From assembly GCF_902686445.1 (NCBI RefSeq), contig NW_025920106.1, positions 1,240,001-1,304,000 on the forward strand: DNA of 64,000 nucleotides, in the 5' to 3' direction. The notes beneath the pieces were generated by a model that was not told where the DNA came from, did not search any database, and was given only the letters and a program-made list of their open reading frames with translations. Below are positions 598 to 64,000 of this stretch, in pieces (the stretch's first letter is position 1; each line of letters starts with the position of its first letter). A program made the translations under genes and the position numbers. Source of the stretch: Sciurus carolinensis (Eukaryota; Chordata; Mammalia; Rodentia; Sciuridae).

Positions 598-3500
598 ATA
601 CCAGAAATAAAAATCATATCTCAATAATGACCCTGAATGTTAATGGCCTAAGCTCATCAATCAAAAGGTGTATACTGGCACATTGGAATAAAAAGAAAGA
701 CCTAACAATATGCTGCCTTCAATAGACTCATCTCATAGAATAAAAACATCCACATACTAAAGGTGAAAGGATGGGAAAAAACAAACCATGCACATCGACT
801 CAGGAAAAAGTGGGGGTTACTCAGGTAAAATGGACTTCAAGACAAAGTTAGAAGGGATGAAGAAGAACATTTCTTACTGCTAAAGGGAACTATCATTCAG
901 AAAGACATAACAATTATAAATATTTATGTTCCAAATAACAGCACATCTATGTACATCAAAGAAATTCTTCTCAATTCCAGGATCCAAATAGACCACAACA
1001 CAATAATTCTGGGTGACTTCAACACACTGCTTTCACCACTGGATAGATATTACAAACAAAAACTGAGCAAAGAATCTATACAACTTAATAACACAATCAA
1101 TAACTTAACCTAAAACACATATATAGAATATTTCATCCATCAATGAGCAAATACATATTATTCTCAGCAGCACATGGATTCTTCACTAAAATAGAACATA
1201 TATTATGCCACAAAGCAGTCCTTAGCAAATCTGAAAAATAGAAACACTACCTTGTGTTCCATCAGATCATAATGGAATGAAATTACAAATCAATGACAAA
1301 ATAAAAAAACAGAAAATACCCCAACACCTGGAGACTAAATAATATGCTACTTAATGTAGCATGGATAACAGAAAATATAAAGGAGGAAGTAAAAAAAAAT
1401 ATCAGAAGTAAATGAGAATGACAATACGAAATATCAAAACCTCTGGGACACTATGAAAGCAGTACTAAGAGGAAAATTTACTGCATATAGTGCATTAAAG
1501 GAAAGAATAAAAAGTCAACAACTAAATGCAACAACTAAATGACCTAACACTACATCTCAAAGCCCTAGAAAAAGAAGAGAAGACCAACACCAAAACTAGT
1601 AAAAGACAGGAAATAATTAAAATCAGATCTGAAATCAAAGTAATTGAAACTAAGGAAACAATTCAAAAAAATTGACAAAAAGTTGGTTCTTTGAGAAAGT
1701 AAACAAATAGATACACAGCCACAGTAATGAAGAGAAGGAGTTAGATAATTTAAATTATAAGCTTCATGATGAAAAAGGAAATATCACACAGACACCATTG
1801 AAATATATAACATAATTAGAAACTACTTTGAAAATCTATACTCCAACAAAGTAGAAAATTTCAAAGACATCGAAAAATTTTTCAAGACATATGATCCTCC
1901 CATATTGAATCAAGAGGACATACACAATTTAACAGATCAATTTCAAGCAATGAAATAGAGGAAGCCATCAAAAAGCTTACAAATGAAGAAAAGCCTGGAG
2001 TCAGATTCTCAGCTGAGTTCTACAAGATCTTCATATAAGAACTTATACCAATACTCCTCAAACTATTCCATAAAATATGGAGGAAATTCTTCCAAATTTA
2101 TTCTGTGAAGCCAGTACCACCCTGACACCAAAACCAGAAAAACACGCATCAAGGAAAAAAAACTTTAGACCAACATTGCTCATGAACATAGAAACAAAAA
2201 TTCTTAACAAAATTCTTGAAAATCACATAAAAAACTTATTAAGAAGATAGTGCACCTCAATCAAGTTGGGTTCATCCCAAGGGTGAAAGGTTGTTTCAAC
2301 ATCTGGAAAAAAATAAATGTAATTCATTACATCAATAGACTTAAGGTTATGAATCATATGATTATTTCAATTGGTGCAGAAAAAACATTTGGTAAAATAC
2401 AACACTCTTTTATGCTCAAAACACTAGAAAAAGTAGAATAGTAGGAACATTCCTCAACATTGTAAAGGTTATCTGTGCTAATCCCACATACAACATCATT
2501 CTTAATGGAGAAAAACTAAAAGCATTCCCTTTAAAACCTGGAAAAAGACGTGGATGCCCTTTTTTGCCACTTCTATTCAACATCATCCTTGAAACACTAG
2601 ACAGAGCAATTAGGCAAACCAAAGAAATTAACAGGATACAAATAGGAAAAGAAGAACTCAAGCTATGACTATTTGCTGACTACATGATGTTATATTTAGA
2701 GGATCCATAAAACTCCACCACAGGACTTCTAGAACTAGAATTTTTAATTGATAAATGAATTCGACAAAATAGTAGGATATAAATTCACCACACATAATCT
2801 AATGCATTTCTATTCATAAGTGATGAATATTCTGAAAGTAAAATTAGGAAAACTACTCCATTCACAACAGCCTCAAAAAAAAAAAAAAACACTTGGTAAT
2901 CAATCTAACAAGGAGGTGAATGACCTCTACAATGATAACTACAGAACCCTAAAGAAAGAAATTTTAAAAAACCTTAGAAAGATCTCCCATATTCTTGAGT
3001 AGGCAGATTTGTATTGTCAAATGGCCATACTTCCAAAGTCACTATGTATATTTAAGAAAATTCCAATTAAAATCTCAATGACATTCATCATAGAAATAGA
3101 GAAATTCATTGTGAAGTCCATCTGGAAGCATAAAAGACCAAGGATAGACAATGCAATTCTGGGTAGGAAGAGTGATGCATGAAGTATCACAATACCAGAC
3201 CTTAAACTCTACTATTGAGCAATAGTAACAAAAACTACATGGTATAGGCACCAAAATATACAGGTAGACCAAAGGTAGAGAATATAAGATACAGAGACAA
3301 ACCCACAGAAGTACAGTTACCTCATACTAGATAAAGGTGCCAAAAACTTGCAATGGAAAAAAAGAGAGCCTCTTCAACAAATGGTGCTAGAACAACTGGA
3401 AATCCATATGCAGTAAAATGTAATTACATATCTATCTTTCACCCTGCACAAAACTCAACTCAAAATGGATCAAGGATTTAGGAATTAGACCAGAGAGAGT

Positions 3501-4353
3501 TCACCTAAATCATCATGATGATTTAGTACCAGACTTTTTTAAAAAGGCTCCCAGAGCGCAAGAAATAAAAGCAAGAATCAAAAAATGGGATGGATTCAAA
3601 CTAAAAATATTTTTCCAAACAAATAACACAATCCATAATGTGCAAAAAAGAGACCACAGAGTGGGAGAAAATCTCTTCTTCATGCATTTCACATAGAGCA
3701 CTAATAGCAAAAATTTATAAAAAATACTTGCAAAACTTTATACCAAAATTACAAACAAACCAATGAGTAAATTGGCTAAGGAACTGGGCAGATACTTCAC
3801 AGAAGATATAGATGTGATAAACAAATATATGAAAAAGTATATCTCATCTCTAGTAATTAGAGAAATGCAATTAAAATATACCCTAAGATTTTATCTAACT
3901 CCCATTAGAATGGTAATTATCAGGAACACAAGCAATAATAAATGTTGGTGTGAATGTGGGGAAAAGGTTCACTTATACATTGTTGTTAGGGTTGAAAATT
4001 GGTGCAGCCACAGTGGAAAGCAGTATGGAGATTCCTCAGAAAACTTGAAATGGACCCACAATTTAACCCAGCTACCCTACTCCTCAGTTTATACCCAAAG
4101 GACTTAAAATCAGCATACTACAGTGACACAATCTCATCAATGTTTATAGGTGCTCAGTTCATGATAGCTAGACTGTGTAACCAATGTAGATTCTCTTCAA
4201 TTGATGAATGGATAAAGAAACTGTTATGTATACACAATGGAATACTACTCAGCCATATAGAAGAATAAAATTATGGCATTTAATGGTAAATGGATGGAGT
4301 TGGAGGATATAATGCTAAGTGAAATATGCAAATTCCACAAAACCAATGACTGA
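598..4353 (+). pseudogene. L1-A ORF2 remnant (endonuclease-reverse transcriptase)
   Basis: By alignment with the ORF2 start of L1-B (25944, minus), the initiator here is ATA at 598 instead of ATG. The endonuclease region follows from about 600. The reverse transcriptase region lies at about 2160-2800, with a readable stretch at 2250-2441 carrying the VGFIP and NRLKV blocks. The catalytic FADD box is damaged: positions 2672-2683 read F-A-D-Y, so the second aspartate is lost, and a stop lies just upstream. The C-terminal part is read in two overlapping frames at 3763-4268. The stop equivalent is TGA at 4351-4353. The many stops and frame changes leave no functional product. Confidence 0.88.
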
Positions 4354-4619
4354 ATGTCTTATCTGATAATTGGATGATGGAACATAAAAGGGGGGACATG
4401 GTAAGTGAAGATGGAGGCACTTTGATTTGTATAGAAGAAAATGGGGTGGGAGGGGTGAGGAAAGAGAGATAGTGGACCAAGAAAGACTTTATTACCCTAT
4501 GTTCATGTAAGATTACAGAATTGGTGTGAGTCTACAGTGTGTACAACCATAGAAACAAGAGTTGTACCCCATTGGTGTACAATGAATCAAAATTCAGTCT
4601 TTAAAAAATATATATGTAC

Positions 4620-7600
4620 TTTAAAAATATTGTCTTGTCAGGGTATATTTGTTAATATTGATGTATCAATTTTGATTGGTCATTGTAGATTCATTCATAT
4701 AGACCCATGGGGTAAATTTGATATTGACTACCCATTGGGGTAGATTTTTCAATATCAACTTTTTCGTGTATATTCATCAATATTGATTCATTGGTGTAGG
4801 TTTTTTCATATTGACCAAACTGAATAGTTTCCTCAATATCAACTCAAGTGTTTTGAATCATTGACATCAGCTAAACTGGGTAGATTCATTGAAATTGACT
4901 CATCAGTCTAGATTTGTCTATATTGACACACTGTGGTAGATTCATTGATATCTACTCATTGGTGTAGATTTGTCAATGTTGTCCCATGAGTGTAGATTCA
5001 TTGAAATCAACTCTGATTTAGATTGGTCAATAAAGTCTCAATGAGGTAGATTCATCAATAATAACCTGTCAGTCTTGATTCATCAATATTGACTTGACAG
5101 GGTAAATTTATAGATATCTACTCATTGGTGTAGATTCATCAACATCTACTCATTGACATAGATTTGAAGATAACAACCATAAGGAGTACAATTGTTAATA
5201 TCAACCCATCAGTGTAAACTCATAAATATCTACTATTGGTGAATCTCCTATATAAATTAATTGGTGTAGACTCATCAGTTTTGATACATCACTGTAGACT
5301 CATCAAATTTGACTCAAAGGTTAAATTTGCCAATATTTATTCATCAGTGTAAAGTCATCTATACTGACTCTTCAGGGTAGATTTGTCAATTTTGACTCTT
5401 TGAAATAGATTCCTCAACATTGACCCATAAGGGCAGATTGATTGATATTGCCTGGAATGGGTAGATTTGTTGATATCAACTCATCAGTTTAGATATGTTG
5501 ATATTGATATGTCAATATAGAGTGGTGTAGATTTATAGACAATGACTCATTGATATTGATGCATCAACATTGATTCCTTCATGTAGATTCACTTATATCA
5601 AACTATCAGTGTAGATTTGTCAACATTGACCCATTGGGATAGATTCATTGATATTGACTAGATTTGTTGATATCAAATTGATGGTGTTGAATCATTAACA
5701 TCAATTCTCAGACAGATTTGTTGGTATTAACTCATCAGTGTAAATTCATCAATACCAATCACCCAGGGTAGATTTGTAGATGTCAAATCAATGGTAGATT
5801 TATTGATATCAACCCATCAGTATAGATTAGTTGATATTGACTTGAAGGCATGGATTCATTAATGTCAACTCTTCAGTGTAGATCACTAGATATAGATTCA
5901 ATTGGGTATATTCATCAATATTAACTCAACAGGGTAGATTTGTCAATATCGACTTGTCAGGGTAGATTTTTTGATATCAAACATAGTGATAGATTCACAC
6001 TGACATTGTCATGTCAGTGTGCATTTGTCAATATTGACTCAATGGGAGTAGATTTGGTGATATCTACTCATTGGTTCTGATTTGTTGATATCTGCTCATC
6101 ATTGTAGATTCATCAATGTCAACTGATAGGGATATTGATCAATATCAACTGTCAGTGTAGATTCATTAATATCTACTTGTTGGTATAGATTAATTGATAT
6201 CAACCCTTAGGGGTGGATTCATCAATATTAACCAGTCATGGTAGATTTGTCAAAGTTCATATGTCAATACTGATTTGTCAATTTAGACTCCTTGATATTG
6301 ACCTGAAAATGTAGATTTTTCAATATTAACTCTTCTGGGTGTATTCATCAATATCAATCAATTGGTGTGGATTTGATAATAACTATCACTGGGGAAGATT
6401 CACTGATATTGAATCATCAGGATACATTCATCTATATCAACCCACTGGTGTAGTAGCAGGAGTAATATAACTGGTGAAACATTGTAATTGCCTAGGATAA
6501 GAGTTCCTCTATTCCCAGAAGATTTGTGACTGAGATCAAGGTTAGAGCTGAAAAGATTCTTGCACAGAGCCTCCTCATGCAGGGTTTTACCACAGCAGCT
6601 AAACATCCTGTGTCCTTGCACATGAAAATTTCCAGGCACCAGTCATACCACAGTCATGAGGTCATCAGAGACCCCCAGTCTCAATCACTGCTCTCCCATC
6701 CTGTCACCACTCTGCACAGAAATGTAGTCATTTGAGTAGATTCATCTATATCAACCAATGGGGATAGATTTGTTGATATCAACTTGATGGATTAATTTTA
6801 TCAATATTGATTCAATTGGTTTGAATGGTTCAATCTGTCAAAATCAATTCATTTGGATACACTCATCAATTTGACCCATTTTCCTGATTCATCAATATTA
6901 ACTTGATGTCATAGATTTATTGATATGGACCCATAGGGGTAGATTTATCAATATCAAACTGTAGTGGTAAATTTGTTCACATCAACACAATATATTACAC
7001 AATAGATTCATCAATATCAACTTTTTGGATACATTAATTGATATTGATTTGTTGATATTGATTCATTGATATAGATTCAACATTATTGACTCATCAGTGT
7101 AGATGCATAGATATCAACTCATCAGGGTAGATTTGTTGATATTGATTCTTCAGTGTAGATTTACAGATATCAACCCATTTTTGTTGGTTTATTGAAATTA
7201 AACCTATGGAGTAGATTCATCAATATTGACCTTTCAAAGTACATTTGTCAATATCGACCCATCAATGTAGTTTGATCAATATTGACCCATTCGGTTAGAT
7301 TTGTTCATATCAACACATTGGGGTAGATTTGTCAATATTGATACAAGCATGTAGATTCATAAATATTGACTCATTGTGATAGATTGTTCATTATCAATTT
7401 GTCATTCAATGATATGATATACTTTGATGGGTAGATTTGTGGATATCAACTTGTCAGTGTAGATCATCAATATTTACCCATTGGTGTACAATCATCAATA
7501 TCAAACCATCAAGGTAGATTCATCTGTATTGACCCTTTGAAGTATATTTGCCAATATTGACTCTTTGGTGCATATTCATTGTTACTGATTTGTCTGTGTA

Positions 7601-9262
7601 GATTCCTCCACACCAACCCACTGTGTTAGAACAGTCAATATCTACTTGATGGGATATATTCACTGATGTCAATCATAGGTGTTGATTCATTGATATTGAT
7701 TCATTGGTGTAGATTCTCTGATATAAAACAATTGGAGTAGATTCACTGATATTGACTCTTCAGTGTAGATCCATCCACATCAATCCATTGGGTTACATTT
7801 ATTAATATCAACTTGTTGGGGTAGATTCATTGACATTGACCTGTAGATTTTGATTCATCTACATTGACTAATCAGTTTAGTTTTGTTGATATTGAACTAT
7901 CCATGTTGATTCATAACATATTGATTTGTCAGTATTGATTCATAGATGTAGCTTCATTTATATTGAACCATCAGGGTATCAGGGTATATTAATCAATATC
8001 AACTTTTCTGGATAGATTCATTGTTATTGTCCTGAGGGTAGATTTGTTGATATTGACTTTTGGTGTAGATTTATCAATGTTGACTCATGGGTGTAGATTC
8101 TTCCATATCTACTCTTTTTGGGTATATTTATCAAAATTGTTTCAATTGTGTAGATTTGACAATATCAAAATATCAGTGTAGATTTTTTAGTATTGACCCA
8201 TTGATCTTGATTCATTGATATTGACTTGATTCTTTAAATTTATCAATGTCACCTTAAAGCTGCAGATTCATCAATATCTACCTGTCAGGACAGATTCATC
8301 AATATTGACTTGAAAATTTAGATTCATCAACTTCGACACTTTGGTGAAGAAACAGCTATGTGAATCCTTCAGCAATGATTTGTTGATATGACCCTATGAC
8401 AAATAGGCATACTTTCATCAATATCAACTCATTGGTGCAAATTTTTGATATTGACTTGTTGGGGTATATTGTTCACTATTGATTTGCTGATATCAATTCT
8501 TCAATATAGGTATGTCAATACTGACTTAATGGGGAAGGTTTGTCAATATCTACTCACCTGTGTAGATTTGTCAAAATTGGACCATCAGTGTAGATCCATG
8601 GATTATGACTCATCAGGTTAGAGTCATTAAAATCTACTCACTGGTGTAGATTTATTGATATCAAAACATTGAGGTAGATTCACCAATATAGACTCAATGG
8701 AATTTACTTGTTGATATTGACACATTGATGTGCATTCATTGATATTGATGCTGGGGTTTATTTGTTGATATCAACTCTGGGAAGATTTATTGATATTGAT
8801 GTGTTGGTATTGTTTCATCATTTACATTTGTAAACATTGATTCACCATGATAGATTATTGATATCCACAATTCTGTAGAGTTTTGTTGATTGGTTGGGGT
8901 TGATTTGTCATAATCAATGAGTCATGGTAGATTCTCTGATATCAACTAAACTGGGCAGATTCATCAATATTGATTTGTTGAAATAAATTATGTAGATTCA
9001 TCAATATTGACTAGGCTATGTACATTGGTTGATATTGATATGTGTGGGTAGATTTGTTGATATTGACTCTTTGGTGAAGATTTGTAGATAATAACTTATA
9101 GGGGTAGATTCATCAATATTGATTTGTCAGTATGGATTTGTCAATGTAGATTCATTGATATCAACCCATTGAGGTATATTTTTTGATATCTATTTTTCTG
9201 GGTATATTCATTAATATCTACCTTTCTCATCAGTGCAAACTCATTTATATCAACCTGTCAGG
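4620..9262. repeat. 28-bp AT-rich minisatellite, about 150 degenerate units
   Basis: Units average about 28 bp and start with GTAGATT. Next come a YR-T-YR block, ATAT, another YR, AC, and a tail of the type YCAT-YR-GG. The YR positions are nearly always CA or TG. Many units contain perfect 10-base palindromes, TCAATATTGA or TTGATATCAA. Copy number is estimated from array length divided by unit length, allowing for the island at 6451-6733. Units are diverged from one another, and no open frame of interest crosses the array. I do not recognise it as a named satellite. Confidence 0.93.
6451..6733. other. Non-repetitive 283-bp island inside the minisatellite
   Basis: The 28-bp periodicity stops at about 6450 and resumes at about 6734. 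The intervening sequence has higher GC and no GTAGATT units. It has no clear poly-A tail or inverted termini, so I cannot call it a SINE or DNA transposon. Short frames cross it on both strands (for example 6526-6735), but they run out of repeat sequence and show no recognisable domain. It is either an insertion into the array or a remnant of pre-array sequence. Confidence 0.7.
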
Positions 9263-9264
9263 GT

Positions 9265-10722
9265 TTTTAAAGGTTTTTTGATAGGGCATTCTGAGGCTTG
9301 TATAGAAGAAGTCTCTCTGAGATTTGTAGGGAGGACTGTTGAATGAGGTGTATAAGTTGGGTGCTCATTGGTAAAAATTAAGAGTTAATTGAGGTGTGTA
9401 TTTGTGGACATCCTTAGTGAGTAAGGAGAGATCTCTGAGATAAATGAAGACAAACTGAAGTTTGAAAGGACGGCTGTATGAGTTGTGTAACAGGGCCCTC
9501 TGAATAGTGAAATTATGGCATTCTGAGGTGTGTTGAATTATGGTGTGTGGTGTGTAACAACGGTTCTCTGGTCATAACATTGATACAGTGATTGATAAAT
9601 AATTTGTGTAGGAAATGTGTCTAAGGTATGTGTGTATGGCCCTCTGAATTCTGTAGAAAGGGCAGTTGATATGTGTAGGTAGAGTTCTGAACTGTGTGGA
9701 GAGGTGACTGCTATGTGTGAAGGAAGTGTTCACTGAAGTGTGAAGGAAAGGTTCTCTGAGATTTGTAGTGCAGAAGATTTGAGGTGTTTAGGGAGGCCTC
9801 TATTAAGTATGCAGGAGGAATCTATAAGGAGTGTAGAAGGGCTGTTTTTTACATAGGAGTGCTCTCTGTTGTGTACTTTGGGCCCTCAGAAATGAATAAT
9901 GAAATCTCTCTGCTATGACTAGGTATAACACATGAGATGTAATGAGAATATTCTTTGAGTATAATAGGGGGAATCCCTACATTGTTTAGGGAGGTCACTC
10001 AACAGTGTTTCCAGTCTTCTCTGAGGTGTGTCAGACCAAACCTCAGAGGCAAGTAGAGAGGGCATTTTGGAGAGTAGTAAGTTGTATCTGAGTTGTGTAG
10101 TATGGTGTGTTGCTTGTAGCATGGAAATTCTGAGGTCTGAATTAACATCTCAGTGGAATTGATAGGGAGCACTCTCTGGGCTGTATAGAAAAAGCTGAGT
10201 CATTTAAGTGTTGCTCAATAAAGTGTGGAGGCAGTGTACCTATGGGCTATATTAATGGGAATTTGAGGTGTGTAGAAAAAGCTCTTGGTATTAGTAGGGA
10301 GTCATTATTTAGACATATAGTGAAATGAGTTTGAGGTGTGAAGTAAAGATTCTCTGAGGTGTTAAGTTGGTTCTCATTTTTATGTAGGGTGGGCTCTCTG
10401 ACATGTAGGGAGAACACTCTGAAGGGTGTAGGAGGGCTTTATGAGGTTTGTAGGAAGGCTTATTGATGAGAGTGTAAGTGTTCACTTAAGTGAATAACAA
10501 GGATATTTTCAGTGTATAGGAAAGGTCTCTGTGGTAAGTCAAAAGTTATCTCTGAGGTGTGTATTGCAGGCTCTCTGACATGAGTAGAAGTCTCTCTAAG
10601 GTGTTTACAGAAGACTTGCTAAGAAGTATAGTTACTAGGTCTTGTGAAGTACTAGTTTGTACTCACTCAAATATGTAGTTATATCTCTCTGAGGTATGGA
10701 GGGAATGATGTAAAGTGGTGCT
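9265..10722. repeat. Second degenerate tandem array (CTCTGAGGTGTGTAGG-type units)
   Basis: A loose repeat with variants of CTCTCTGAGGTGTGTAGGGA recurs every 25-30 bases or so, with many indels. The base composition (G and T rich) and the unit are unlike the adjoining 28-bp array. Units are too diverged to count reliably by eye. No coding sequence is supported inside it. Confidence 0.75.
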
Positions 10723-18333: not shown

Positions 18334-19286
18334 ATGAGGCACCATTTCAGTAGCACCAAACCTATGCATGAAGCAGGATTATTTCAAAGTAGATAAATGA
18401 ACTAGAAAGTGTCCATTGAAGTTTAGGTTAACTGTAATCAGCAGATCCTCCTTCCCTATTTCCGAGCTCACCTCTATTTTCTAAATAGAAGTCAACAGAG
18501 GGAGAAAGAGTGTCCTGGCAAAACTGCAGATACTAAAACTTTTGTTCCAGGTATTACACAACACCCACTTGGGATAGGGAACAAGGCATTGGTGGACATG
18601 GAGGACAGGGTCCAGTAGAGAGAACTGAAAGGGTGGGTTGCTGTGACTGGCACTTGACATTTGAAGTTCACCGAATGTCAGTCATCCTTAGATCACAAGT
18701 CTGCAGTACTGAGACTCAGACACTGATAAATCCACCATTAATCAGAGTAATGGGATGGGTCTCCAATGTTCTTTGAAGGAGCAGAGGGTGAGGTCATAGC
18801 TTTAAAGGTTTCTCTTGACTTTGATTAAGGAAAAAAAACAGCAACATGGCGCACACTCACTAGCTCAGTTTTCCTCTTGTGGATGCCTCACAGATTAAAG
18901 GCATACCACATTAACCAACCCACTGCCTCCAGACCTAGCGATGCTCCATCCTGACCCAGTGACTCTGAGGAAAAGGTGAGAAAAAGGTGCTGTGGGCCAG
19001 GTAGGACCCGTGCAGGTAAGGCAGGGTGAGGGAATACTCTGGTTCTTGGACCTGGAGCATATGGGTTTGCCCCTACATGTACACAAAGAAGTGCCCTGCA
19101 CCCACCCACAGTCTCTGTGATTGGTAGTGACACACAAAGTTGGTGTAACTGTTCATGAAAAATTAATGCAAATGTTTTTTTTATTCCTAGCAACAAGAGG
19201 CACCATGGGGTCCAACCCCTCCTGTGAAGAGCTGTGACAGAGGATGGGAGAGCAGTGACTGAGATTGTCTCTGATAGCATCATAGC
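18333..19286. other. Unassigned region left of the provirus
   Basis: Moderate GC. Overlapping minus-strand frames at 18888-19283 (131 codons) and 18895-19137 show no recognisable domain, so I do not call a gene. It could be unrelated flank or more LTR-type sequence. Confidence 0.45.
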
Positions 19287-19800
19287 TGTGAGAAAAGAGC
19301 CAAGAGCCTGGGAATGTTTCTGTGCAAAGGCACAGGATGCTTAACTACTGTGGCAATGCCTTGCATGAGCAGTCTCTGTTCAAGAGTCCTATTAGCTCTG
19401 ACCTTAATCTCAGGCACACAGCTCAAGGAAAGGAAGGAATTATTATGCTAGACAACCACACTATTTCACCAGCTCTGCTTTCCAGGTTCTGCCTGTCTTA
19501 GAGTAACTTTTAACAATGGTCTTTCTTGAGAGCTATGAAAAGCCCTATCATTGCACTTTCCAACTATGGATTGCAACTACAGAAAAACTACATAGGATGT
19601 CCTAATTTCTGAAACTTTCCTGAATATGAAGAATTGCATAGTCTTTAATCTGATAATGAAACATATATAAAGATTGCTGGCATAAGTCTTTAGAGCTGCT
19701 TCTCCATCAGAGAGCAGAGCTCCACCTGATCCCAGCTTAATCTTCAAGGTCGTGTTTGTGAATCTTTATTTTCCAATCCCCCTTCACCCCTCACCATACC
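19287..19800 (+). repeat. LTR-like block at the 5' side of the provirus
   Basis: It starts with TG (TGTGAGAAAAGAGCC), has a TATA-type element at about 19662-19672 (CATATATAAAG) and lies directly upstream of nucleocapsid and pol remnants in the same orientation. These fit a U3-R-U5 arrangement. I could not fix the 3' boundary or a convincing primer-binding site; a degraded TGG-starting site near 19807 is only suggestive. The gap to the nucleocapsid is about 50 bp, so most of gag is missing. Confidence 0.5.
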
Positions 19801-22149: not shown

Positions 22150-22610
22150 CCATTCCATTTTACAGTGGGATTACTGTCTATACTGATGGAGGAAAACAAC
22201 AAGATTATTATGTATATTCACTGATAAAAAGTGGACTGATTATTACACATTGCCTCAAGTTTCTCCTCAGCAAGCAAAATTAGCTGCAATTATTTTGGCT
22301 CTTCATTTGTTTTCCACAACATTAAACATCATTACAGATTCTCAGTATATAGCCAAACTTATACCTCATATTTTCTCTGAAATTTGGTCACCTCATTTGA
22401 ACTCTAATTTGTTATCTCTGCTTATTACTCTTTATTGCCTTTTATAGGATTATACAGCTCCAGTATTTCTTCCTCATATATGTGACCACACTAAGATTTC
22501 TGGACAACTCACTGGAGAAAATGCTCATACTGATGCTGCTATAAAATCACTTTATCCTCTCTTTTCAGATGTCATGGTATCAAATACTTTTTTCATCAAA
22601 ATTTTTATTT
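22150..22610 (+). pseudogene. Proviral RNase H remnant
   Basis: A VYTDGG block (about 22170-22190) supplies the first catalytic aspartate. After a frame change, 22250-22447 reads through a QQAKLAAIILAL helix and an ITDSQYIA block with a further catalytic aspartate. This is the layout of retroviral RNase H, which removes RNA from the RNA-DNA hybrid. The frameshift and the stop after 22447 inactivate it. Confidence 0.75.
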
Positions 22611-22614
22611 TTTA

Positions 22615-23330
22615 ATGAAATCCTTTTCTATTTCCTCTCAACAGGCCCATATCATTGTTAATAATTGCTCTCATTTTAAACCCTTTTGTTTCCCCACTTG
22701 GGAAATGGTAAACCCTCGAGGTTTATATTATAATGCCCTTTGGCAGATAAGTATAACTCATTTTCCTTCTTTTTACCCCTATTTCTACTTACATGTTACA
22801 ACAGATACATCCCCAGGTCTTATATTGGCCAGTGCACATTGTTCAGAGAAGGTCTCAGCCTGTATCTCTCATGTGCTCCTCTGCACTGCCACCGTGGGCA
22901 AACCTCATCATTTAAAAACTGAGAATGTCCCTTATACTTCTAGTTACTTTGCTAAGTTTTGTAATCAATGGAATATAATTTTAACCCATGGAAATTCTCA
23001 AAATCCTACTGGGCAGACTTTAGTAGAGTGTGCACATCATACACTTAAAATGTGCCTTTTAAAAGAAAACAAAAAGGGATCATAGACTTGCTCATGTTAA
23101 TAATGCTCTCAATATTGCCCTGTTCACAAGAAATGCTCTTAATATACAGTATAAAGATAATACACGTTGTTGGTCCTCTGTCTTGGACAGGTACATTTCC
23201 TCTAACAAACCCCTACCAAAGATTTCAGTAAAATACCAAGTTCCACCATAACTAATATGGCAGATCCTGCAACTTTAATTACATGTGAGGGGATATGCTG
23301 CTGTTATTACTCATACAGTTTCTCTCTAAA
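22615..23330 (+). pseudogene. Proviral integrase remnant
   Basis: An open stretch of 156 codons (22615-23085) covers the end of the zinc-binding domain and the catalytic core. At the first catalytic position the sequence reads WQISITH, with serine where the family has aspartate. At the second it reads KTENVPY, with glutamate for aspartate. The third acidic residue is kept (TLVECAH). Downstream to about 23330 the C-terminal region can be followed only in fragments. The protein would be catalytically dead even if expressed. Confidence 0.78.
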
Positions 23331-25384: not shown

Positions 25385-25419
<35 letters not shown>

Positions 25420-25944
25420 TAGGTTATTGATTGCGTTATTGAGTTCTATGGTTTCTTTGGTTGGATTTTGTTTGGAAGATCTATCTAGTGGTGACAGCGG
25501 TGCGTTAAAGTCACCCAGAATTATTGTGTTGTGGTCTATGTGATTTCTGAAATTGAGAAGGATTTGTTTGATGTACAGGGATGCACCATTGTTTGGGGCA
25601 TAAATATTTACTATTGTTATGTCTTCCTGATTTATGGTTCCCTTAAGCAGTATGAAATGTCCTTCTTTATCCCTTCTGACTAACTTTGGCTTGAAGTCCA
25701 CTTTATCTGATATAAGGATGGAAACACCCGCTTTTTTACTGAGTCCATGTGCGTGGTAAGTTTTTTCCCATCCTTTCACCTTTAGTCTGTGGACGCCTTT
25801 TTCTATGAGATGAGTCTCTTGCAGGCAGCATATTGTTGGGTCTTTCTTTTTAATCCATTCTGCCAGTCTATGTCTTTTGATTGATGAGCTTAGGTCATTA
25901 ATGTTCAGGGTTATTATTGAGATGTGATTTGTATTCCCAGTCAT
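23665..25944 (-). pseudogene. L1-B ORF2, truncated (endonuclease and part of RT)
   Basis: It starts with ATG at 25944 and reads HISIITLNINDLSSSIKRHR, the start of the L1 endonuclease. The endonuclease frame runs to about 25417, where a TA microsatellite breaks it; endonuclease similarity resumes at 25345-25082 with SAAHGTFSKIDHMLCHK. The RT portion at 23640-23951 carries the [16 protein letters not shown] block. The catalytic box reads F-A-D-G, so the second aspartate is lost. The ORF ends at the left boundary of the element before the RT domain is complete. Confidence 0.85.
25362..25417. repeat. (TA)n microsatellite inside L1-B endonuclease
   Basis: About 56 bases of almost pure TA with a single interruption (ACTATA). 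It lies inside the ORF2 coding region at the point following the residues NNAINNLD, so it expanded after the L1 inserted. Confidence 0.95.
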
Positions 25945-25999
25945 TTGGCTTATTTTTGTTTTTTAAGTTGGCTTGGTTTCTCCTTTGAGTGATTTATCT

Positions 26000-42717: not shown

Positions 42718-45700
42718 TCATCCTTTACATTTTTGAGATTGACTTATCTCACGTAGCATGATATTATCCAATTTTATCCATTTGCCTGCAAATGTCATAA
42801 TTTTATCATTATTTATGGTGGAGTAATATTCCATTTTATATATATACCACAGATTCTTTATCCATTCATAAACTGAAGGACATCTAGGTTGGTTCCACAA
42901 TCTGGCTATGGTGAATTGAGCAGCAATGAACATCGATGTGGCTGCATTTCTGTAGTATGCTGATTTTAACCCCTTTGGGTATAGGCCAAGGAGTGGGATA
43001 GCTGGGTCAAATGATGGTTCCATTCCAAATATTCTGAGGAATCTTGATACTGCTTTCCAGAGTGGTTGCACTAATTTGAAACCCCACCAACACTGTATGA
43101 GCGTACCTTTTTCCCCACATCTTCACCAACACCTGTTGTTGCTTGCGTTGTTGACAATTGTCATTCTAATTGGGGTGAGATAAATCTTAGGGTGGGTTTG
43201 ATTTGCATTTCTCTTATTACTCGAGAGGTTGAACATTTTTTCATATATCTGTTGATTGATTGTACATCTTCTGTAAAGTGTCTGTTCATTTCCTTAGCCC
43301 ATTTGTTGATTAGATTATCTGTATTCTTGGTGTAGAGATTTTTGAGTTCTTTATATATTCTGGAAATTAGTTTTCTATCTGAAGTATGAGTACAAAGATA
43401 TTCTCCCATTCTGTAGGCTCTCTCTTCACATTACTGATAGTTTCATTTGATGAGAGAAAGCTTTTAGTTTGAATCTATCCCAGTTGTTGATTCTTGATTT
43501 TATTTCTTGTGTTATGGGAGTCCTGTTAAGGAAATGTGATCCTAAGCCAAAAAGTTGAAGATTTGGACCTACTTTTTCTTCTATAAGATGCAGGGTCTCT
43601 GGTGTGATTCCGAGGTCCTTGATCCATTTTGAGTTGATTTTTGTGCAGGGTGAGAGATAGAGGTGTAATTTCATTCTGTTGCATATGGTTTCCTGGTTTT
43701 CCAGCACCATTTATTGAAGAAGCTATCTTTTCTCCATTGCATATTTTTGGCCCCTTTGTCTAGTATGAGAAAATTGTATTTATTTGGGTTTGTGTCCATG
43801 TCCTCTATTCTGTACCATTGATGTACCTGTCTATTTTGGTACCAATACCATGCCCTTATTGTTACTATTGCTTTGTAGTAGAGTTGGAGATCTGCTACTG
43901 TGATACCACCTGCTTCACTCATTCTGCTGAGGATTGCTTTAGCTATTCTGGCTTTCTTATTCTTCAACATGAATTTCAGAATTGCTTGCTCTATTTCTGT
44001 AAGGTACATCATTGGGATTTTAATTGGAATTGCATTGAATCTGTATAGCACTTTTGGTAGTATGGCCATTTTGACAATATTAATTCTTCCTATCCAAGAA
44101 CATGGGAGATCTTTCCATCTTCTAAGGTTTTCTTTAATTTCTTTCTTTAGTGTTCTGTAGTTCTCATTATAGAGGTCTTTCACCTCTTTTGTGAGATTGA
44201 TGCCCAAGTATTTTATTTTTTTCGATGCTATTTGAATGGTGTAGTTTTCCTAACTTCTCTTTCTGAAGATTCATCAATTATGTATAAAAATGCATTGGAT
44301 TTAGAGCATTGATCTTGTAACATGCTCCTTTACTGAATACACTTATGAGATCTAAAAGTTTTCTGGTGGAATTTCCAGGTTCCTCTAAATATATAATCAT
44401 GTCATCAGCAAGCAGGTATAGTTTGAGTTCTTTTCCTATTTGCATCCCTTTAATTTCTTTGGTTTGTCTATTTGCTCTGACTAGAGTTTCAAGGACGATG
44501 GTGAATAGAAGTGGTGAAAGAGGGCATCCCTGCCTTGTTCCTGTTTTTAGGGGGAATGCTTTCAGTTTTTCACCACTTAGAATGATATTGGTCATGGGCT
44601 TAGCATAGATGGCCTTTACAATGTTAAGGAATGTTCCCACTACCTCAATTTTTTCTAGTGTTTTGAGCATGAAGGGATGTTGTATTTCATCAAATGCTTT
44701 TTCTGCATCTATCAAAATTATCATGTGATTCTTAACTTTAAGTCTGTTGATATGGTGAATTTCATTTATTGATTTCTGGATGTTGAACCAACCTTCCATC
44801 CCTGGGATAAAACCCACTTGATCATGGTGCACTATCTTTTTAATATATTTTTGTATGTGATTTGCTAAGATTTTGTTGAGAATTTTTGTGTTAATATTTA
44901 TTAAGGATATTGGTCTGAAATTTTCTTTCCTCAATGTGTCTCTGTCTGGTTTAGATCTCAGGGTGATATTGGCTTCATAGAATGAGTTTGGGAGGGTTCC
45001 CTCCTCTTTTATTTCATGGAATACTTTGAGGAGTATTGGAATGAGCTCTTCTTTAAAGGTTTTGTAGAACTCGACTGAGAACCCATCAGGTCCCAGATTT
45101 TCTTTGTTGGTAGGCTTTTGATGACCTCTTCTATTGCATTGCTTGAAATTGATTTATTTAAGTTGTGTATATCCTCCTCATTCAGTTTAGGTAATTCATA
45201 TGTCTCTAGAAACTTGTTGATGTCTTCGAGGTTTTCTGTTTTGTTGGAATATAGATTTTTAAAATAGCTTCTTATTATGTTTTGTATTTCACTCTTGTCT
45301 GTTGTGATATTTCCTTGTTCATTCCAAAGTTTAGTAATTAGCATTTTCTCCCTCTTTCTCTTTGTTAGTGTGGCTAAGGGTTTATCATAGTTGTTTATTT
45401 TTTCAAAGAACCAACTATTTATTTTGTTAGTTTTTCCGATTGTTTCTTTTTTTTCAATTGTGTTTTTTCAGCTCTGAGTTTAACTATTTCCTGTCTTCTA
45501 CTACTTTTGGTGTTGGTCTGCTCTTCTTTTTCTAGGGCATTGAGCTGTAGTGTTAAGTCATTTATTTGTTGACTTTTACTTCTTTTGTTGAATGTACCCC
45601 ATGAAATAAATCTTCCTCTAAGTACTGCTTACATAGTGTCCCAGAGATTTTGATATGATGTGTCTTTGTTCTTGTTTACTTCTAAGAATTTTTTTGTTTC

Positions 45701-61273: not shown

Positions 61274-63424
61274 TCATCCACTTATTAGCGATATCATTCT
61301 TCCTTTGGTTTTTTGAGATTGGCTTATCTCACTTATCATGATATTCTCCAGTTTCATCCATTTGCCTGCAAATGCCATAATTTTATCGTTCTTTATGGCT
61401 GAGTAATATTCCATTGTATATATATACCACATTTTCTTTATCCATTCATCAATTGAAGGACATCTAGGTTGGTTCCACAATCTGGCTATTGTGAACTGAG
61501 CAGCTATGAACATTGATGTGGCTGTATCTCTGTAATATGCTGATTTTAAGTCCTTTGGGTATAGGCCAAGGAGTGGGATAGCTGGGTCAAATGGTGTTTC
61601 CATTCCAAGTTTTCTAAGGAATCTCCACACTGCTTTCCAGAGTGGCTGCACTAATTTGCAGTCCCACCAGCAATGTAAGAGTGTACCTTTCTCCCCACAT
61701 CCTCGCCAACACCTGTTGTTGCTTGTATTCTTGATAATTGCCATTCTAATTGGGGTGAAATGGAATCTTAGGGTGGTTTTGATTTGCATTTCTCTTATTA
61801 CTAGAGATGTTGAACATTTTTCCATATGTTTGTTGATTGCTTGTATATCTTCTTCTGTGAAGTGTCTGTTCATTTCCTTAGCCCATTTGTCAGTTGGATT
61901 ATTTACATTCTTGGTGTAGAGTTTTTTGAGTTCTTTATAGATTCTGGAGATTAGCGCTCTATCTGAAGTATGATTGGCAAAGATTTTCTCCCACTCTGTA
62001 GGCTCTTTCTTTGCATTGCTGATAGTTTCCTTTGCTGAGAGAAAGCTTTTTAGTTTGAATCTATCCCAGTTATTAATTCTTGCTTTTATTTCTTGTGCTA
62101 TGGGAGTCCTGTTGAGGAAGTCTGGTCCTAAGCCAACATGTTGAAGCTCTGGACCTACTTTTTCTTCTATAAGATGCAAGGTCTCTGGTCTGATTCCGAG
62201 ATCCTTAATCCATTTTGAGTTTAGTTTCGTGCATGGTGAGAGATATGGGTTTAGTTTCATTCTGTTGCATATGGATTTCCAATTCTCCCAGCACCATTTG
62301 TTGAAGAGGCTATCTTTACTCCATTGCATATTTTTGGCCCCTTTGTCTAATATGAGAAAATTGTATTTATTTGGGTTAGTGTCCATGTCCTCTATTCTGT
62401 ACCATTGATCCACCTTTCTATTTTGGTAACAATACCATGCCGTTTTTGTTACTATTGCTTTGTAGTAGAGTTGAAGATCTGGTATTGCGATACCCCCTGC
62501 TTCACTCTTTCTGCCAAGGATTGCTTTAGCTATTCTGGGTTTTTTATTCTTCCAGATGAATTTCATAATTGCTTGCTCTATTTCTGTAAGGTACATCATT
62601 GGGATTTTAATTGGAATTGCATTGAATCTGTATAGCACTTTTGGTAGTATGGCCATTTTGACAATATTAATTCTTCCTATCCAAGAACATGGGAGATCTT
62701 TCCATCTTCTAAGGTTTTCTTGAATTTCTTTCTTTAGTGTTCTGTAGTTCTCATTGTAGAGGTCTTTCACCTCTTTTGTGAGATTGATTCCCAAATACTT
62801 TATTTTTTTCGAAGCTATTGTGAATGGGGTAGTTTTCCTAATTTCTCTTTCTGAAGATTCATCGCTTATATATAAAAATGCCTTAGATTTATGTGTATTG
62901 ATCTTATATCCCGCTACTTTACTGAATTCACTTATGAGATCTAAAAGTTTTCTGGTGGAATTTCCTGGTTCCTCTAAGTATACCATCATATCATCAGCAA
63001 ATAGGGATAGTTTGAGTTCTTCTTTTCCTATTCGTATCCCTTTAATTTCTTTGGTCTGTCTAATTGCTCTGGCTAGAGTTTCAAGGACGATATTGAATAG
63101 AAGTGGTGAAAGAGGGCATCCCTGCCTTGTTCCAGTTTTTAGAGGGAATGCTTTCAGTTTTTCACCATTTAGAATGATATTAGCCATGGGTTTAGCGTAG
63201 ATGGCCTTTACAATGTTAAGGAATGTTCCCACTATCCCTATTTTTTCTAGTGTTTTGAGCATGAAGGGGTGCTGTATTTTATCAAATGCTTTTTCTGCAT
63301 CTATCAAAATAATCATGTGATACTTGACTTTAAGTCTATTGATATGGTGAATTACATTTATTGATTTCCTGATGTTGAACCAACCTTGCATCCCTGGGAT
63401 GAAACCCACTTGGTCATGGTGCAC
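61274..63424 (-). CDS. L1-G ORF2, long open part (reverse transcriptase and C-terminal region)
   Basis: An uninterrupted stretch of 716 codons. Residues 1-150 hold the RT palm: AEKAFDKI with the motif A aspartate, [16 protein letters not shown], and an intact F-A-D-D box at residues 142-145 (62990-63001). A long linker follows. Near residues 560-590 lies the cysteine motif [18 protein letters not shown], with C-x3-C-x7-H-x4-C spacing. The ORF ends [14 protein letters not shown]1 ORF2p nicks target DNA and copies L1 RNA onto it. The first codon shown is GTG, reached only because of the upstream frameshift; the true ORF2 start lies beyond 64000. Confidence 0.88.
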
Positions 63425-64000
63425 TATCTTTTAATATGTTTTTGTATGCAATTTGCTAAAATTTTGTTTAGAATTTTTGCGTCGATGTTCATTAAGGATA
63501 TTGGTCTGAAATTTTCTTTCCTCGATGTGTCTCTGTCTGGTTTAGGAATCAGGGTAATATTTGCTTCATAGAATGAGTTTGGGAGAGTTCCCTCCTCTTC
63601 TATTTTCTGGAATACTTTGAGAAGTATTGGAATGAGTTCTTCTTTAAAAGTTTTGTAGAACTCGGCTGAGAACCCATCTGGTCTTGGACTTTTCTTTGTT
63701 GGAAGGCTTTTGATGACTTCTTCTATTTCATTACTTGAAATTGGTCTATTTAAATTGTGTATGTCCTCCTCATTCAGTTTAGGCAATTCATATGTCTCTA
63801 GAAACCTGTTGATGTCTTCGAAATTTTCTATTTTGTTGGAGTATAGATTTTCAAAATACCTTCTAATTATGTTTTGTATTTCAGTCGTGTCTGTTGTGAT
63901 ATTTCCTTGTTCATTCCGAATTTTAGTGATTTGGGTTTTCTCTCGTCTTCTCTTTGTTAGTGTGGCTAAAGGTTTATCAATTTTGTTTATTTTTTCGAAG
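63424..64000 (-). pseudogene. L1-G ORF2, upstream part in a shifted frame
   Basis: Reading from the window edge, this covers the region between endonuclease and RT and the start of the [22 protein letters not shown], then [15 protein letters not shown] and [20 protein letters not shown]. It ends at IQKHIKR followed by a stop. L1-D and L1-E have five A residues at this point on the sense strand, and L1-G has four (plus-strand T-run 63429-63432). One deleted base accounts for the whole frame change. Confidence 0.9.

Follow-up and report, generated by a model that had tools for sequence, protein, structure and literature searches.

A tandem array of 28-bp units in the genome of Sciurus carolinensis was very probably built from a unit bearing CG at five positions, each of which then decayed singly at the ordinary rate of germline-methylated CpG. 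The array lies in the stretch of DNA that we analysed (the window: 64,000 nucleotides of contig NW_025920106.1, positions 1,240,001 to 1,304,000, forward strand), where an initial annotation had read its CA and TG dinucleotides as decayed, methylated CpGs. In this array and its copies, the two bases of each site are linked, individual cells (one site in one unit) have changed independently of each other, comparison of copies places CG as the ancestral state, and the excess of substitutions is specific to CpG. The founder would have been a 28-bp unit bearing five CGs, approximately GTAGATTCGTCGATATCGACTCGTCGGT, its two halves being diverged copies of one 14-mer, and would have been amplified into the array. 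After amplification each CpG would have decayed alone, a C-to-T change giving TG when it fell on one strand and CA when it fell on the other, and the array would have been copied several times within larger duplications. An early split between two lineages of copies, A and BC, would have taken place with about two thirds of the cells still CG, and later splits with about 4–10% CG.

The unit, GTAGATTYRTYRATATYRACTYRTYRGT, was derived from a wraparound profile with independently fitted columns, which was run on positions 4700–6452 and 6736–9262 and produced 157 rows; column 28 held T (0.50) or G (0.38). With CG written at its five pyrimidine-purine (YR) sites, the unit rotated by 14 positions matched itself at 20 of 28 positions, compared with 9 for the next best rotation, as befits a diverged dimer of a 14-mer. 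This structure predicts a fifth YR site, at columns 22–23, behaving like the four that had been named earlier. Classical mammalian minisatellites consist of units of 10–60 bp placed head to tail, an arrangement and a unit length that the array shares. Unlike them, it is AT-rich, with a guanine-plus-cytosine content of about 0.33 today where a GC-rich unit would be expected of a classical minisatellite, and its units are highly diverged. The initial annotation was right about the tandem 28-bp units, but the minisatellite that it placed at 4620–9262 is not continuous, being broken by an insertion (Table 1).

Dinucleotides were counted in units that had 20 or more columns, 149 in all, and cells with non-adjacent bases were dropped. 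The same minimum applied to the strand counts, the independence tests, the CG fractions of single arrays and the insertion comparison; at least 18 columns were required for pairwise copy comparisons, the group A alignment and tree and the BC likelihood, and at least 16 for unit-by-unit copy agreement, the A/BC chains and the 16-state rate fits. The five sites gave 727 cells, distributed as CA 281, TG 237, TA 39, CG 3 and other 167. Tabulated in this way, CA and TG were well above the level expected from independent base frequencies: 518 of the 727 cells carried one or the other, compared with a mean of 289 and a maximum of 336 in 10,000 within-site permutations of the second base, whereas CG, with three cells, fell far below its permutation mean of 129.8 and minimum of 103. 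Mutual information between neighbouring columns was 0.51–0.74 bits at the five sites and did not exceed 0.13 at any other pair. At the four positions that the initial annotation had described as mostly CA or TG, these two accounted for 215 and 207 of 586 cells, and its count by eye in ten units (starting at 4870–5140) was exact, with 30 CA or TG, two TA and no CG among 40 cells; the fifth site, columns 22–23, behaves alike. As an informal negative control, the dinucleotide lists of the adjacent 23-bp minisatellite presented no matching CA/TG alternation.

Linkage, near complete inside each dinucleotide, was about absent three bases away. In six arrays, four from one copy group and two from the other and so not fully independent, linkage between sites of the same unit reached p<0.05 in 2 of 60 tests (lowest 0.018), and linkage of the same site between units one to six apart in 3 of 180. 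This independence between sites and between neighbouring units points to decay cell by cell and not to inherited unit types.

An exact 22-base motif of the array matched 507 times in the 2.8-Gb genome, and its reversed control did not match. Twenty regions of 10 kb were drawn from the motif matches listed, so that 21 arrays, including that of the window, could be compared; in all 21, CG made up 0.5–1.8% of the YR cells. Among the motif matches listed, eight fell on two large contigs, C5 and C11, and all others on C16–C22, of which C16–C19 measure 3.0–8.4 Mb. The arrays are duplicates of larger segments and belong to two copy groups. In group A, the window, L021 and L022 are 95–96% identical, and L014, L018, L019, L020, L026 and L028 stand at 79–84% to the window; the second group (BC) contains L009, L010, L012 and L027, together with L013 and L023–L025. 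Copy pairs with fewer than 60 comparable cells were dropped. L015, which could be aligned to the window no further than 6440, and L016 and L017, which had no qualifying match in the group A alignment in spite of pieces at 75% and 80%, were omitted from the group A trees; L015 was kept in the per-unit majorities behind the chain identity, strand-context, tail-column and shared-state counts. An alternative alignment of L014 to the window at 72.9% identity (CA/TG differing in 40 of 111 cells) and one of L014 to L015 (39 of 127) were taken as unit misregistration, with a control divergence of 0.22–0.24 in the out-of-register pairs, and the 84% alignment of L014 was used in the trees.

CA and TG states mostly agreed within copy groups (389 the same and 16 different between the window and L026, compared unit by unit), indicating that most of the decay predates those duplications. 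Of 39 sites at which some copy of group A retained CG, 18 had both CA and TG among the other copies, compared with 104 of 691 sites without CG.

Substitution rates were estimated on a tree of group A built from non-YR columns, with three root positions and with cells present in fewer than five copies dropped, and on a BC tree with a single midpoint root and two weak nodes, with cells in fewer than three copies dropped (as also in the 16-state fits). Per control substitution, the rates in group A were 20–23 for CG to CA and 14–18 for CG to TG across the three roots, compared with 0.65–0.68 for CA to TA and 0.43–0.45 for TG to TA. The 16-state fits gave 17–21 and 17–19 for the two CpG transitions in both groups, and 0.67–0.81 for other C-to-T changes, that is, CpG transitions were about 25 times faster. 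Dropping the CpG excess cost 244–282 in twice the log-likelihood difference in A (three roots) and 151 in BC. The fraction of CG at the root was 0.04–0.10 in A, depending on the root position, and 0.07 in BC, and the time before the root amounted to 0.065–0.084 control substitutions in A and 0.074 in BC.

A founder in which every cell was CG, with a single parameter, is almost as good a fit to both copy groups as a free root with four: -3376.7 against -3374.1, -3384.5 against -3382.3 and -3399.6 against -3397.5 at the three roots of A, and -3259.9 against -3256.9 in BC. A founder mix free of CG, with three more parameters than the all-CG founder, reached -3389.8, -3391.1 and -3400.5 at the A roots and -3267.4 in BC.

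The older divergence between A and BC also places CG as the ancestral state. Aligned by non-YR columns only, the two groups are colinear over 24–52 units, depending on the setting, with chain scores of 40.1, 52.3 and 54.6, compared with at most 14.1 after shuffling the unit order (five shuffles each). In the 34-unit chain non-YR identity was 0.88, and CA/TG states agreed in 66 of 109 cells and differed in 43, whereas both columns had changed in 5 of 383 adjacent control column pairs. Agreement of CA/TG was 0.60–0.62 in every class of alignment strength, compared with 0.51 in random unit pairs, and this constancy speaks against misalignment as the cause of the disagreement. A joint likelihood with 16 dinucleotide states put CG at 0.66–0.67 of the cells at the split in the 34- and 44-unit chains, values from 0.5 to 0.8 lying within about 3.4 log units, with stems of 0.065–0.075 control substitutions. 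Forbidding CG at the split cost 78 and 88 log units, one of the free fits having stopped 0.46 short of its optimum.

Several observations weigh against decay from a CG-bearing founder. No undecayed, CG-rich array was found, the fully CG core GATTCGTCGATATCGA having no exact match in the genome; with up to two mismatches it had 298 matches, fewer than the 879 of its reversed control, and the best three carried one mismatch. Two of these three places were examined and contain arrays with CG in 8 of 407 (2.0%) and 4 of 108 (3.7%) of the YR cells, which is slightly above the 0.5–1.8% of the other 21, yet still decayed. The CG-free mix was worse than the all-CG founder by 13.1 and 6.6 log units at two roots of A, but by only 0.9 at the third, the root position least liked by the data. 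Fitted site by site in A, with two more parameters, the mix did slightly better at sites 1, 4 and 5 (by 1.1, 3.3 and 2.2) but was the poorer fit at sites 2 and 3. At the A/BC split, about 10% of the cells were apparently something other than CG, carrying CT, AG or CC in both lineages: such states were common to A and BC in 13 of 29 cells of the 34-unit chain (1.7 expected by chance) and in 14 of 48 of the 52-unit chain (2.7 by chance). Finally, columns 20, 21, 24, 27, 28, 1, 3 and 4, the tail of the unit, were already variable before the split, with 46 of 66 derived states shared, compared with 7 of 27 in the core, and this heterogeneity indicates that the array did not start from a single uniform unit.

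The sharing of CT, AG and CC states between lineages, while CA and TG are mostly not shared, together with the variability of the tail columns, indicates change before the split at non-CpG positions without a matching loss of CpG. They raise the possibility, which we regard as improbable though the best of the alternatives, that the CpGs were protected before the A/BC split, either by lacking methylation in the germline or through restoration by mismatch-directed gene conversion, and became methylated afterwards. A phase without CpG excess before the split was in fact better than a constant excess by 7.7–9.7 log units, and 60 simulations under constant excess reached gains of at most 0.3. However, with one more parameter, a founder in which about 11% of the cells had never been CG, whose proportions of non-CG states were set after seeing the data, fitted better than late onset (-1495.3 against -1502.3 and -1922.7 against -1929.8), and late onset remained poorer when given the same extra parameter (-1498.8 and -1926.5). 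Moreover, the gain of late onset changed sign in 5% of 60 bootstraps over units and, when restricted to the 17 units of clearest orthology, dropped to 2.6. It is likewise improbable that the array, with its conserved TAGATTCGTCGATATCGA core and variable tail, records a switch, in which its CpGs, being unmethylated or repaired, mutated no differently from other bases before the split and decayed at the methylated rate only after it; if this were true, it would be as if a repeat originally bound and protected had lost its protection.

Decay from CpG after amplification of a CpG-bearing unit, which the initial annotation had proposed, is well supported, with a pace characteristic of methylated CpG, by the independence of cells, the copy comparisons, the rates and the joint likelihood. 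Its further claim, that the array is a record of silencing, is not. Targeted silencing, with an array specially heavily methylated and its decay the trace of that event, might be read from the high CpG rates and from a CpG observed/expected ratio of 0.041, compared with 0.095 in positions 10721–64000. That value is itself low, and the adjacent 23-bp array (0.043) and the L1 element on the left (0.057) are equally CpG-poor. Two copies, L011 (at 3290–7010) and L017, carry a CpG-rich insertion inside the array, in which they share 22 CGs and differ 36 times as CG/TG or CG/CA. In this unrelated sequence, CpG transition loss was 30.1 per non-CpG substitution (bootstrap 95% 19.8–47.2), the same within error as the summed rates of 35–38 per control substitution in the array, the yardsticks being not identical (control columns in the array, bases outside CpG in the insertion) and the comparison being one insertion in one copy pair. 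Loss in the array was thus not found to be faster than that of unrelated CpGs, although loss up to about 1.9 times as fast in the array would be compatible with the data. Methylation is the default state of CpG outside islands in mammals, and the agreement between array and insertion implies that default germline methylation suffices; we infer that it, rather than targeted silencing, which is unlikely, was the cause.

Amplification of a founder mix, its unit types already differing by CA or TG and CG never common, is a very unlikely origin of the array. Such a mix would explain why later duplicates share CA/TG states unit by unit, heterogeneity of this kind is real at other columns, and sites 1, 4 and 5 lean slightly towards it when fitted one by one. 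Yet inherited unit types are at odds with little or no linkage between sites three bases apart next to near-complete linkage inside each dinucleotide, and with the 43 cells in which orthologous units of A and BC disagree; the 78–88 log units lost without CG at the split likewise disfavour it as the main cause.

The changes were not symmetric between strands. Counted from the per-unit majorities of A and BC, the ACGA strand had changed 378 times and the TCGT strand 214 times at the context-asymmetric sites, columns 8–9 and 22–23, and at the mirror-image sites of the palindrome, columns 11–12 and 17–18, the same strand context changed more at both (365:286, p=0.002). APOBEC-type deaminases prefer TC, and all five top-strand sites of the inferred unit read TCG, but enzymatic deamination of this type is the least likely of the alternatives, the excess of changes on the ACGA strand being the opposite of a TC preference and the rates at CG being about 25-fold higher than at other C. 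Methylation followed by deamination would be the chemistry of CG loss in the array. CpG transitions have been tied to methylation (PMC6731651); they vary by trinucleotide context but still exceed the genome average by an order of magnitude (PMC8683084).

The array is an unusually clean and well-replicated example of a well-known mutation process, not a new system, and no paper on it stood among the titles listed in literature searches, in which the unit sequence itself was not searched for. Ancestral CG is likewise deduced from TG and CA dimers across adjacent columns in work on transposable-element decay and in the Dfam consensus caller (PMC7805219); there the material is families of elements, whereas one tandem array and its duplicates can be matched as orthologues unit by unit and tested at an old divergence. 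The CpG-depleted, TpG-enriched neocentromere of the cattle X chromosome is also repetitive DNA in which a CpG deficit is read as methylation and then deamination; in the accessible part of that source the argument is built on CpG and TpG counts in bulk, with methylation profiles, for a centromere rich in transposable elements, and here on single cells of 28-bp units placed on a tree (PMC12663436). With five CpG sites, about 150 units, many duplicated copies and non-CpG columns as an internal clock, the array amounts to a natural replicate experiment, in which a single locus allows one to measure how fast CpGs decay, how strand and context bias the process, and in what order the array was amplified, duplicated and decayed. 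It also illustrates that alternation of CA and TG in a minisatellite can reflect a CpG-rich origin, a point of consequence for classifying repeats and building their consensus sequences.

Features of the array and its surroundings are given in Table 1. The initial annotation had pointed to two surviving CGs, near 5950 and 7252; both exist and look like survivors, whereas a third, at 8334, is likelier to have been re-created. At the middle root their posteriors of CG were 0.69 (5950), 0.98 (7255) and 0.15 (8334).

Table 1. Coordinates in the window of the array, its residual CGs and adjoining repeats.
Feature	Position	Strand	Evidence
28-bp tandem array, first part, unit GTAGATTYRTYRATATYRACTYRTYRGT	4626..6453	+	profile segments and rows
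28-bp tandem array, second part	6728..9264	+	profile segments and rows
274-bp interspersed-repeat insertion splitting the array	6454..6727	.	75% identity over 257 bp to 19222–19472, other strand
23-bp minisatellite, unit GAGGTGTGTAGGGAGGGCTCTCT, adjoining the 28-bp array	9263..10720	+	profile score 419 vs 22 (one shuffled sequence)
Residual CG, site 17–18, probable survivor	5950..5951	+	posterior root CG 0.68–0.69 (three roots); other copies CG, TG, CA
Residual CG, site 17–18, survivor	7255..7256	+	posterior root CG 0.95–0.99 (three roots); other copies CG, TG, CA
Residual CG, site 17–18, probably re-created from TG	8334..8335	+	posterior root TG 0.84–0.90; CG 0.15

In their profile segments, several other copies of the array have a gap of similar size and place to the insertion at 6454–6727. 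Elsewhere in the window, four of eight open stretches scanned (22534–23085, 25387–25962, 44278–45153 and 61274–63430) matched integrase, endonuclease or reverse-transcriptase families in Pfam, the integrase-core match being below the cut-off, and these four are probably remnants of retroelements.

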